Source: Geosiphon pyriformis
Lineage: Eukaryota > Glomeromycota > Glomeromycetes > Archaeosporales > Geosiphonaceae
Length of the DNA: 64,000 nucleotides
Assembly: GCA_016748015.1 (NCBI GenBank)
Contig: JAAOMT010000577.1
Location: 223,854-287,853 of the forward strand
Direction: 5' to 3'
The translations under genes and the position numbers were made by a program. The notes beneath the pieces are model-generated. The model did not search any database. It was given only the letters and a program-made list of their open reading frames with translations, and was not told where the DNA came from. This document shows, piece after piece, positions 5,724 to 57,623 of the stretch (position 1 is its first letter; each line of letters starts with the position of its first letter).

Positions 5724-7273
5724 ATGCATCCATTACGATTATTGTTTGAATTCGGAATCTTTTCACCTCGATTTCGTTTTTCAAAATTAAATTTAACGAT
5801 ATTTAAACAGATAGATCATTTCATCCTTTTTTTAGGCATATATTTAATTATATCATTATTTTTCCTTATTGAGATAGAGATTCTGCCTCATGATAAAAAT
5901 AAGATGGTTAATACCCCAATAAAACCCTTAATATATCATTCATCATCATCATCATCATCATCATCATCATCATTATTATTATTATTACAAGAAACGCAGA
6001 AAGGGTATCAAAGTAAAAAAAATCAGAGTCCCTTAAATTATCCAATTTTAAGTGATTTCAATAATCCGTTAAAATCTCATAAAGCAAAGAAGCTCAAGCG
6101 AGATACGCTTCTAGCTGTATTAGAGCGCCCAAAAGTAAATCCATCACCCCAAGATTTCGTTTTACAATTATACGGTGGACCCATACTAGAAGATTTGAAA
6201 AAATTTGCTGGTTATGCGAAAGAATCCTATTGTCTTAATGACCGGCTTGGGAAATTTGGGGAAGGCGTCTATGGTAAAATTTTAGATTATATGCTTGCTT
6301 GCTTGTTTGTTTGCCTGATCGATATTTCGTTTTTTGATTAAAAACAATCATAATTTTGATCCTATTTGAATTTACCTCAAAAATTTTTAGCACATGCATT
6401 CGTGAATCATGAAATTACAGATAAAACGGAAATTATCATTTACTTGAGAGGGGAGGAAATGAGCTTTGAAAACTGGAGAATATGGCGGCCTGAAACTATA
6501 CCATATCATGGAGTCTTGCAAGCTAGGGTCAATTCCAAATTTTATTCTACATACCTAAGTGTGGAAGGGAGTTTGTTAAGTGTTCTCGTAAATTTTATAA
6601 ATCACAAAAATTACGACAAATATTCATTACGATTTACCGGACATGGAATAGGAGCAGGTGATTATCAATCTCATAACTAAAAAAAATGTATTTAGATTTT
6701 TTCATTTGTTTTATATCTTTCTTGTTTTTTTTTTTATTAATTAAAATTATAATCATTTTTTTATCGCGCCAGTTTATGCCGTATTTGCTGCTCTATCATT
6801 TTTAGAAATATACCCGGAAATAAAAGATGTCAATGTGATCACATTTGGTCAACCACGTATAGGAAATCCACAATTTGCAAAGCATGTTGACCAATTGCTG
6901 CCACTTATGGACCGAGTTACTCACAGTGATGATTATGTTCCACAATTCTTTGCCGATCAAAACTTTCTACATTCTGCAGTGGAAACTTGGATTTCGAATG
7001 ATTGTAATTGTCAGCCAGCTATAGATAATTTTCACATTTGTATTCCAGTGTCTACTGGAGGAAGACATGAATTTGATCGAGAAAATCCAGTATGTTTTAT
7101 TTTTATTTTTGGACTTTTATTGCTATGCTTCTCGAGATTGAAATCTTTAAAATTTTTTCCTTCAATTTTTATTATTAAAGTACTGTAATAATAGTCAACG
7201 CCATGCTTTAAAGATAGGCAGCAATGCGCATAATGGCCCATATTTTGGGCACATGATGGGACATTGCTCTTGA
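5724..7273 (+). CDS. class 3 lipase-like protein L1, nucleophile Ser replaced by Gly
   Basis: Four exons (5724-6273, 6391-6657, 6773-7089, 7181-7273) give 408 residues. Each junction keeps frame and has GT...AG. The N-terminus has a hydrophobic segment (about residues 30-50, signal anchor or late signal peptide) and a (TCA)n-encoded Ser run followed by Leu. The lipase domain starts near FAGYAKESYC. Recognised fold markers are IIIYLRGEE (in place of the oxyanion FRGS/T), GHGIG (in place of GHSxG), TFGQPRIGN, THSDDYVP (catalytic Asp), EtWI with DCNC, and the C-terminal AHNGPYFG (catalytic His). Asp and His are present but the nucleophile position is Gly and the oxyanion residue is Glu, so hydrolysis is unlikely. 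The product is probably secreted or membrane-anchored. L2 lies 1.7 kb downstream in the same orientation, a tandem pair. Domain calls are secure; the function is unknown. Confidence 0.85.
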
Positions 7274-8957
7274 AATACACATCGTCAAGATAAACATCTC
7301 AAATTTTCACTTAAAATCCTCTCATCATGAAAATAACACACTAGAGTGTTCACATGATTGAATAGACATTGTATAGTTTTAACATTGAAGTTTTCATTGA
7401 TAAGATTACTTCATAAAATAATTCATGTATCAAAAATTAAATTATTTTGAAAACTGTTTGATTTATCTCCACTTCAAAAAAGCCTAGACGAAATTTTTTT
7501 ATATGCTTTAATATGATCAGTTTGAAGATAAATAAAAGAAATAAAAAATTTTATGGTTATGTTTTTATTCGAAATTCAAATCTCGAAAATTGATTCGATA
7601 CAATAATCAGAGTACTCATTAAAAATTCTTAGTTTTGCTATAAACATCTTAAAAGTGGACAAAAATTTTATTTTCCTATAAATTAAAAACAATTAATTTT
7701 ATTAAAGTTTAAATAAAATTTTAAAATGTAAATAAATGATTATGTTTATTAATCAAATATAAGTTAAAATAATTAAAATTTAAAATAATTAATGATTTAT
7801 AATTTACAATTTATTTTGTTAACATGTAATTTTTTTAAAAAATCTTATTTATCATAATTATACCTACTAATCATAATTATAATGTTAAAAAATAAATTTT
7901 TATCAAAAAAGTTATTTTTTTTTTTCAGAAAATAGAAAATTTAGAGATTATTTTTTTATTAAATCAAAAATATAATAATATATATTAAAATAACTTATTT
8001 TCAATTTTATCACTTAAATATTTTATATTTTTTAAATATATTAATTTAGTATTAACCAATTATACTTAATATATATATGTAATTATTTTTAACAAAGAAT
8101 TATTAAATTGGCTTTCAATCAATCAAAAAAATTATCAATCTTTTTCATCTCTTTAATTTCACTTCAAAGATTTACTATGGATTAAATTTTAATATTCACA
8201 GATTATTCTTTAACTTGCTTTTTTTTCATTTCATTGATTATTTTATGTATCTTTGCTTCTAATATTGATCACAAATGAAATTATAATCATCTAGAAAAGT
8301 TATCGTTTTTCGATTAATGAACTCATTCATGATTTTCAATTAGTATAACCATTTTTACTAATCATATTTTATTTTTGAATTGATCATCAAAAAACAAAAA
8401 AAAAATTTTCAAATGTTGATCCCATAGAGAACTAATAGTCTAGAAACAAAGATTTGAATCTAAACTTCTAAAGAATGAAAAAGAAAAAAGCCTTTAGAAA
8501 TTTCATGTGTCAATAAGCTTTAACTAAAATGGTGATATTTCAAAGGAATAATTTTAAAATCTTTAAATCTTCTTCTTACTCAAAACTGAGATAAGGAAGG
8601 AGAATTGAAGGCAAAAACGTCATATATCAATTTCAATCTCGGCTAACCAGACATGTATTAGAAATCTTGAAATACATTCATATGATCACTATTTTTAAAT
8701 TAGAAATTTTCCCTGAAATATTTATTCAAAAAAAGTAATTCACTGCAAAATTTTAAGGGAAAGAACATGGCTAAAAATAGTTTGACGTAAAAGTGAAAAA
8801 TATATTTATTTCCCACACTCTTTATTTACTCATTTACATGAGAGAGTTTAGTTAGATCATCAATTTCGCAAAGACCCGAAAAACGTGCTTTATAACTGAA
8901 AAAAAAATTAATATTTTCAAACCTTTTTATTTTTTACTTTATCATTTTGTGTTTTCG
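7274..8957. other. intergenic between L1 and L2
   Basis: Very AT-rich DNA with no open frame of interest. It must contain the L1 3' end and the L2 promoter, but I cannot assign individual elements. Confidence 0.6.
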
Positions 8958-56056: not shown

Positions 56057-57623
56057 TTAAGTCTCCTGACTACAATCTGTAATTGCTATACCAAAGTAAG
56101 GTCCAGCGTGATCCTCTGAATTTTCATTTTTGTCTTTGTTAATGCAATTCTAGTGAAATCCAAAATTTTGATTATCGCCCAAGTTAATATCTTATATTAT
56201 AATTATCAGTTTTAATAAATAGAATTTTTAAACTTCTACCTGATTCTCCTTTAAAACTCCTGAACCTGCATTCGAATTCTCTTCACAAACTTGAAATTCA
56301 TCTTTGACACCATTATCCCAATACTCATTGCCATTATGAACATACTTCTCGCCTTTAAAGTCAACCGGTCTTCGTGGGATACTATCTCGCTTGTAAGTGA
56401 ATCGTAAAGATTCTATAAGACTTGAAACATATTTTGCGTAAGCCTCGTTGCCGATTCGGGGTTTCCCAAAAGAATGTAATTCGATTTTTATTGAACGCCC
56501 GAGGATTTTGGCGAGAGAAATAGCAACAAATTCAGCATATACTGGAAATTAATCAAATTTTTAGACTTGAATTTATAAATTAAACTCATTCATTCATTCC
56601 TTTATTTTAGATTCGAAGAGGTAAAATAAAAATCTATTCTTGCTTACCACTAGCGAGACCATATCCATTAAACCGAATCGTTTCCAAATTCGGGCTTGAT
56701 TCCATTATTTTTTGCAAATTTTCGACCTTAACATTACCTTGCCATTTCAAATATTTCTGATAAAAACCCTTATGAACCTTGGCACCTGGTACGCCAGGAA
56801 AATCGACCATTTGAGAGTTTTCTTTTCGAAGCTCATAAGTTAAATTTCTTTCATCTGCGCCATATGTTATTACTTTAAATTTTTCAAAATTTAGGAAAAT
56901 TCCTGCAGCATAAGAAACGGAATGAAATCAAAATAGGACAGTGATTACATTAAAGCAAAAAATCAAACATAAATTGATTGAATAAAATTTACCACTAACT
57001 GGATTGACCGTTTTTCTATTGAAACAATATGCTTTTCTGGCTACCGTAGCATAAAAGCCAAACTCCTCGTAGAAAACTTTAAAGAGGTTATTATCCAGTT
57101 GAGGTGTAAGTGCAATTCTTTCTTCATTGGGAATTATGGTATTTAAATTAGAATTTTGAAAATTTGAAGAGAAAGTTGGTTGCTCAAGTTCAAATACATT
57201 TTTCTTGGAACTTCCAATATTTGATTGAAAACCAGTCGTATCTATTTCAGTGATTGATGATAAATATGATGGATCTAGGCCGATTTTAAACTCTTTATTG
57301 CTAGCTGCTATGTCAAAATTTGAATCCAGGTTTGCGGTATTAAATAACTGCGTCCCGCTATCACTTTGAGACTGTTCTATATTTTTGAAAAGAGATTGCG
57401 ATTCATCATGTATCTCGTTTTCGAAAATAAAATCTTCGTCATATAGTTTTTTTGAAGAGATCAAAAAATCATTTTCTTCAGCGAAATTTCGTAATTCAGG
57501 GTTAGACAGATCAGTTGGCGTCAATTTATATGTTATTGGTGAAGCTTTTACTAAGGAAAAAGAACTTGAATTCCAAAAGAAAAAAAATCCAAAGATAGCC
57601 CTAAATAAAAATTTCTTTGTCAT
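56057..57623 (-). CDS. class 3 lipase-like protein L5, degenerate nucleophile elbow (GYGLA)
   Basis: Four exons (57623-56993, 56902-56648, 56541-56240, 56149-56057) give 426 residues. A signal peptide (residues 1-28, FFFFWNSSSFSLVKASP) is followed by an acidic, Ser-rich 160-residue pro-region and then the lipase domain (YATVARKAYC). Motifs: VITYGADERN (no FRGS), DFPGVPGAKVHKGFYQKYLK (well-preserved lid-to-core region), FNGYGLAS where GHSxGG is expected (both His and Ser lost), SFGKPRIGN, YKRDSIPRRP (Asp kept), NEYWD, and DHAGPYFG (His kept). It lacks the CNC/CDC pair of the other members. This is the most diverged copy, in tandem with L4 on the same strand. Confidence 0.83.

Follow-up and report, generated by a model that had tools for sequence, protein, structure and literature searches.

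Five lipase-like genes (L1 to L5) in a 64,000-nucleotide stretch of the Geosiphon pyriformis genome, hereafter the window (C387:223854-287853; assembly of 124.7 Mb in 406 contigs), were found to belong to a family of about 313 loci in which the position of the catalytic serine of class 3 lipases is mostly occupied by glycine. The serine is missing at 205 of the 228 places where the family's nucleophile signature was recognized, the Ser/Gly change has recurred, and the pairs of glycine genes compared are under constraint. We think it somewhat probable, judging from sequence, that the glycine members form an expanded set of lipase-fold proteins that bind a ligand without hydrolysing it and that are probably secreted.

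Models were built at all five loci, and each could be spliced into a full reading frame across GT..AG introns, with four exons in L1, L2, L4 and L5 and five in L3; the exon 3 donor is the weakest-grounded of the L4 splice sites. All five proteins score above the Pfam Lipase_3 (PF01764) cut-off of 22 bits (L1 77.9, L2 68.1, L3 55.0, L4 61.6, L5 57.8), and a scan of the whole window with exon profiles recovered L1-L5 only, with no sixth family member. The genes and their nucleophile elbows, the latter read directly from the sequence, are as follows, with the residues at the three catalytic positions in the order nucleophile, Asp, His.

5724..7273, + strand: L1, lipase-fold gene; exons 5724-6273, 6391-6657, 6773-7089 and 7181-7273; 408 amino acids; G-D-H; hydrophobic stretch close to the N terminus
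6639..6647, + strand: GHG of the L1 nucleophile elbow, GGA CAT GGA; the intron starts past 6657
8958..10388, + strand: L2, lipase-fold gene; exons 8958-9396, 9474-9737, 9822-10180 and 10269-10388; 393 amino acids; G-D-H
9719..9727, + strand: GHG of L2, GGT CAT GGT
30311..32007, - strand: L3, lipase-fold gene; exons 31467-32007, 31254-31375, 31029-31152, 30634-30962 and 30311-30418; 407 amino acids; S-A-N (GHS retained, Ala at the Asp position, Asn at the His position)
31039..31047, - strand: GHS of L3, GGA CAT TCA
53310..54859, - strand: L4, lipase-fold gene; exons 54475-54859, 54124-54390, 53532-53998 and 53310-53459; 422 amino acids; G-D-H
54134..54142, - strand: GHG of L4, GGG CAT GGT
56057..57623, - strand: L5, lipase-fold gene; exons 56993-57623, 56648-56902, 56240-56541 and 56057-56149; 426 amino acids; G-D-H
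56658..56666, - strand: GYG of L5, GGA TAT GGT (elbow GYGLAS)

After splicing (slash, intron), the elbows read GHGIGA/V in L1, GHGEGG/V in L2, GHSIGG/V in L3, GHGVGG/A in L4 and GYGLAS/V in L5. The Asp motif is HSDDYVP in L1, HSDDYVS in L2, RQNDYVP in L4 and YKRDSIP in L5, with Ala instead in L3 (HTDAYEP); the C-terminal His motif is NAHNGPYF, SSHFGPYF, LEHFGPYF and EDHAGPYF in the same four genes, with Asn instead in L3 (RANNGPYF). The oxyanion motifs of L1 to L5 are LRGEE, FRGNE, IRGEI, FKGPH and YGADE, none of them FRG[ST]. A first-pass annotation of the window had described five lipase-like genes without a complete triad, four with Gly at the nucleophile and Asp and His retained, and L3 with Ser retained and the other two changed, all with an altered FRG[ST]; the spliced models bear this description out, as do the Pfam scores for the identity of the genes. 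Its assignment of the Rhizomucor miehei lipase fold holds for L1, the one protein modelled (via the deposited protein G9A89_021768).

Because the intron follows directly past the elbow motif and the nucleophile codon lies inside the exon, splicing is not what sets the nucleophile residue. Mis-splicing as the source of GHG was ruled out, the same exon end occurring 228 times in the genome. Two deposited G. pyriformis proteins, G9A89_021768 and G9A89_021769, match L1 and L2, respectively, both starting inside exon 1; the latter has 3 residues fewer than L2 past GHGEGG, by an alternative splice choice. Poly-Ser runs from (TCA)n-type repeats lie in coding exons of L1 (window 5936-5990), L3 (31800-31895, a long run in exon 1) and L4 (53890-53950), at a different position in each protein.

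The exon-2-end signature, GHxxG[G/A] followed by a donor, occurs at 228 places in the genome and at none in the reversed control, so chance is not a candidate. Another 85 loci, after merging, come from Pfam matches (150 listed of 163) away from all signature places, and together these give the total of about 313, in which a gene with widely spaced exons may count double and some loci may be fragments. Independently of the exon-2 count, the exon-4 pattern HxGPYFG is found at 317 places and never in the reversed control, and 51 more exon-2 ends have the His of GH replaced by Phe or Tyr (reversed control 4). The genes are clustered, with 109 of the 228 signature places within 20 kb of another (random mean 15.6). 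One deposited protein, G9A89_004930, contains two lipase-fold domains in tandem with elbows GFGIGG and GHGEGG; the protein is either genuinely fused or the product of joining two gene models.

Among the 228 places, the nucleophile codon encodes Gly at 173, Ser at 23 and other residues at 32 (Ala 10, Asp 9, Asn 3, Glu 3, Tyr 2, Cys 2, Phe 1, Ile 1, Arg 1), counts that are inflated by shared ancestry. The Ser codons are AGY at 20 places and TCN at 3; one of the 23, C175:507247, lacks exons 3 and 4 and probably lies outside the family. Asn, Thr, Ile, Arg and Cys, each one base from AGY, jointly make up 7 of the 205 non-Ser places, where Gly makes up 173. The two Cys places (C101:28527 and C251:42504) read GHCxGG and could represent a Cys hydrolase; the C101 locus, the one of the two that was fetched, showed neither exon 3 nor exon 4.

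Exon profiles run over 88 loci and the window yielded 99 different genes. The sample took in the signature places on contigs through early C227, the extra Pfam loci there, the best Pfam hits and, deliberately, all 23 Ser places, and its Gly:Ser ratio is therefore not that of the genome. Asp is present in 93 of the 99 genes. Sampled Gly genes have Asp in 59/59 and His in 56 of the 57 with exon 4 found, at a median pairwise identity of 30%, the two columns being among the most conserved; the 25 Ser genes have Asp in 22 and His in 20. Where the nucleophile is Arg, Phe, Tyr, Ile, Asn or Glu, none of nine genes has the His (one by a gap at the column) and eight retain the Asp. This association between nucleophile and His comes from few independent events, and an independent-pairs (tree-based sign) test of it was uninformative.

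The oxyanion Ser/Thr is present in 2/54 Gly genes and 6/18 Ser genes. Those six Ser genes and L005, whose FRGT falls outside the counted column and which matches mucoralean lipases (E 5e-33), also carry GHSLGG, Asp and His, giving seven genes with the full machinery. The gene at C380:810111 is an example with a complete triad. The proposal of the first-pass annotation of an expanded pseudo-lipase family stands for the serine-less family, which is far larger than the window could reveal, but does not extend to these seven; the lipid-binding, decoy or regulatory roles that it put forward would be candidate functions.

The tree indicates that the Ser/Gly position has changed repeatedly. With the three catalytic columns removed, and without L027 (the C101 locus above, lacking exon 3) and L054 (covering 28% of columns), the 97-gene tree requires the Gly label to change 15 times, with 9 of these changes forced by supported branches, and the turnover is therefore recurrent; a quick tree of 98 genes gave 16 changes, 5 of them forced. 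A single Gly origin is ruled out, the Gly genes forming one clade in 0/200 bootstrap trees. L5 itself pairs with a Ser gene (support 99/97), and L024 (Ser, Asp, His) lies within a supported group (99/93) made up of 24 Gly genes, one Ala gene and one Ser gene. L024 has either retained its Ser or returned to it from Gly, as the tree gives no direction. The seven genes with full machinery group with L046, and the support for this set of eight Ser genes (98/55) is not strong.

Constraint in the Gly pairs tested is moderate but real. Seven independent Gly-Gly pairs have a pooled ratio of nonsynonymous to synonymous substitution rates (dN/dS) of 0.54 (bootstrap 0.44-0.65), with single Gly pairs ranging from 0.35 to 1.00 and one Ser pair at 0.67. 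Given these values, pseudogene decay, against which the first-pass annotation had proposed a dN/dS check, is not supported. Open frames match all three exon profiles in 94 of the 99 genes, and four cysteines, the Asp and two residues of a GQPR motif (G and P) are among the columns that do not vary in Gly genes. Inflation of the family by haplotigs is not evident in the sample: among 94 genes compared, no pair exceeds 0.89 protein identity and the lowest synonymous divergence (dS) is 0.12.

We suggest that gene duplication freed most copies from the need for catalysis, the catalytic Ser having turned over repeatedly and become mostly Gly. Most members would not hydrolyse esters, as catalysis requires both a nucleophile and an oxyanion hole and their nucleophile and oxyanion Ser/Thr are gone, and selection would keep the cysteines together with the Asp and, in most members, the His; hydrolysis would be left to the small group with the full triad. 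The nucleophile elbow is a strained turn that Gly would relieve, and the excess of Gly over the other one-step residues may reflect this fit, Gly having been fixed as the residue that best suits the turn and leaves a stable, empty acyl-binding cleft. The ligand could be a lipid, an acylglycerol or a glycolipid at the cell surface or the symbiotic interface. Non-hydrolytic ligand binding is favoured because the nucleophile and oxyanion residues are usually lost with the cysteines and cleft motifs kept, and because Ser-to-Ala mutants have been crystallized with ligand, namely, by the titles of the structure entries, S133A feruloyl esterase A with ferulate (2bjh) and S146A Thermomyces lipase with oleate (1gt6). 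These show the same fold with Ser removed and ligand bound, but they are laboratory mutants with Ala instead of Gly and no other change in their titles. The N-terminal 15-mers of L1-L5 are hydrophobic, with Kyte-Doolittle (KD) values from 1.31 (L5) to 2.95 (L3), which suggests secretion.

Several observations weigh against this reading. A join of exon-2 and exon-4 places across the genome could assess 62 Gly genes, 46 with His and 16 with Asn, which weakens the impression from the sample, drawn mainly from low-numbered contigs, that Gly genes almost always keep the His. The His side of the join covered the exon-4 sites with GGC or GGG (91, complete) and GGA (100 of 110 listed), with 116 GGT sites excluded; the non-His side held 100 of 104 places (reversed control 5), and as codons beginning with C fell outside that search, His losses in Gly genes may exceed 16. 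Seven of the 16 Asn genes belong to one array on C329. The dN/dS of 0.54 marks only moderate constraint, with one pair at 1.0. In the L1 model, confidence is low around the His (block means 42-61 near residues 301-350), and in sequence alignment the His falls one residue off from that of feruloyl esterase A, which we take to be its catalytic His, HxGPYF having an extra residue before the Tyr, after the His. The hydrophobic N termini are those of five window proteins only, and the strained turn is a general argument. The C329 array is a Gly-type cluster at C329:1221134-1296256, and its seven genes with Asn at the His position make a sub-family in which Ser and His are both replaced.

A broader view, which we judge rather improbable, is that Geosiphon has converted a lipase into a repertoire of several hundred Gly-Asp-His proteins whose serine-less active site serves either as a set of lipid or glycolipid receptors at the cyanobacterial interface or for a new Asp-His chemistry, with a one-base Ser/Gly exchange (GGY to AGY) at a single codon inactivating members, and perhaps reactivating some, in the course of evolution.

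It is rather unlikely, in our judgement, that the lipase fold here serves as a scaffold for protein recognition or signalling, or as a variable surface repertoire for recognition of partner or self. The precedent is the plant EDS1/PAD4/SAG101 group, in which the class-3 lipase fold is likewise used without demonstrated lipase activity. EDS1 and PAD4 have an additional C-terminal domain. Unlike them, L1-L5 end shortly past the lipase domain, and a Pfam scan at E<=0.1 found no EP domain, the domain of EDS1/PAD4/SAG101, in L1-L5; in the available portion of the sources, EDS1 and PAD4 are S-D-H, whereas the Geosiphon Gly members lack the Ser.

Slightly less likely again is that the Gly members catalyse a different kind of reaction. 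The retained Asp-His pair would then be the general base for water or an acceptor alcohol placed in the gap that the missing Ser leaves, giving direct hydrolysis, acyl transfer or a lyase. The near-complete retention of both residues in the sampled Gly genes despite their divergence fits such a chemistry, as does the absence of His from all nine genes with one of the six other residues listed above at the nucleophile. Yet Asn stands for His in 16/62 Gly genes genome-wide, the oxyanion Ser/Thr is lost in 52/54, and the nucleophile/His association comes from few independent events; moreover, as Asp is retained in eight of the nine genes without His, it may be structural.

Relaxed duplicates on their way to pseudogenes are an improbable explanation. 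A moderate dN/dS with one pair at 1.0 would suit them, as would the varied substitutions at the nucleophile and His positions in a minority of genes, but the bootstrap range of the pooled dN/dS, the open frames in 94 genes and the four invariant cysteines argue otherwise, and so does the concentration of non-Ser places on Gly (173/205, inflated by shared ancestry) where a spread over one-step changes would be expected. That these are ordinary active lipases with a nucleophile elsewhere or a mis-modelled gene is very improbable and largely refuted, for although the fold and Asp are intact, the motif lies within an exon in all five genes, the public L1 and L2 proteins agree, and the same Gly recurs at 173 places.

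With the Rhizomucor miehei/Rhizopus triacylglycerol lipases (PF01764, class 3), the Geosiphon proteins share the Pfam family (L1-L5), the fold (L1) and the place of the Asp and, less securely, of a C-terminal His, and seven sampled genes also have FRGT, GHSLGG, Asp and His. They differ in that 205 of 228 places have no nucleophile Ser, in that Gly genes hardly ever retain the oxyanion Ser/Thr, and in the extra residue of HxGPYF relative to feruloyl esterase A. Non-catalytic hydrolase folds with the catalytic Ser replaced, Gly among the known replacements, occur in neuroligins and dipteran yolk proteins; these differ in being animal proteins of few members from other hydrolase families.

Geosiphon pyriformis houses cyanobacteria inside its cells, its partner being Nostoc and not a plant. 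A lipase-fold repertoire of this size is a testable candidate for the interface at which it would obtain lipid from the cyanobacterium. A pseudoenzyme family this large, of one fold in one fungus, is also a natural series on the fate of an active site once catalysis has been dropped, offering repeated Ser/Gly change, His kept or lost, and, as an internal control, a group that looks active. In the parts of the papers available, fatty acid synthase genes were undetected in the Glomeromycota genomes analysed (PMC11134847), and the average for Glomeromycotina arbuscular mycorrhizal fungi is 189 lipases, every kind included, by that paper's own method (PMC12574304). Among the literature matches listed, which did not cover the Geosiphon genome paper, no title or abstract describes a serine-less lipase-fold family in Geosiphon, nor do the available portions of PMC8778642, PMC5293756 and PMC4771724 mention a Geosiphon lipase-fold family. 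Protein searches for the family in other fungi returned Geosiphon only, an uninformative absence as one search recovered just 7 family proteins.

Other features of the window lie among the lipase-like genes. An open reading frame (ORF) at 26883-28493 (-) resembles GDP-fucose protein O-fucosyltransferase (PF10250), one at 36890-38314 (-) has seven Sel1 repeat stretches, and one at 44699-45982 (+) ends in a jacalin-like lectin domain (PF01419). The ORF at 35105-35671 (-) is an alpha/beta hydrolase of another kind (Abhydrolase_1, elbow GHSRGA) that Pfam does not assign to Lipase_3. The block at 20001-24000 is strongly AT-rich, with a G+C content of 14.6% against 22-34% in the remaining 4-kb blocks.

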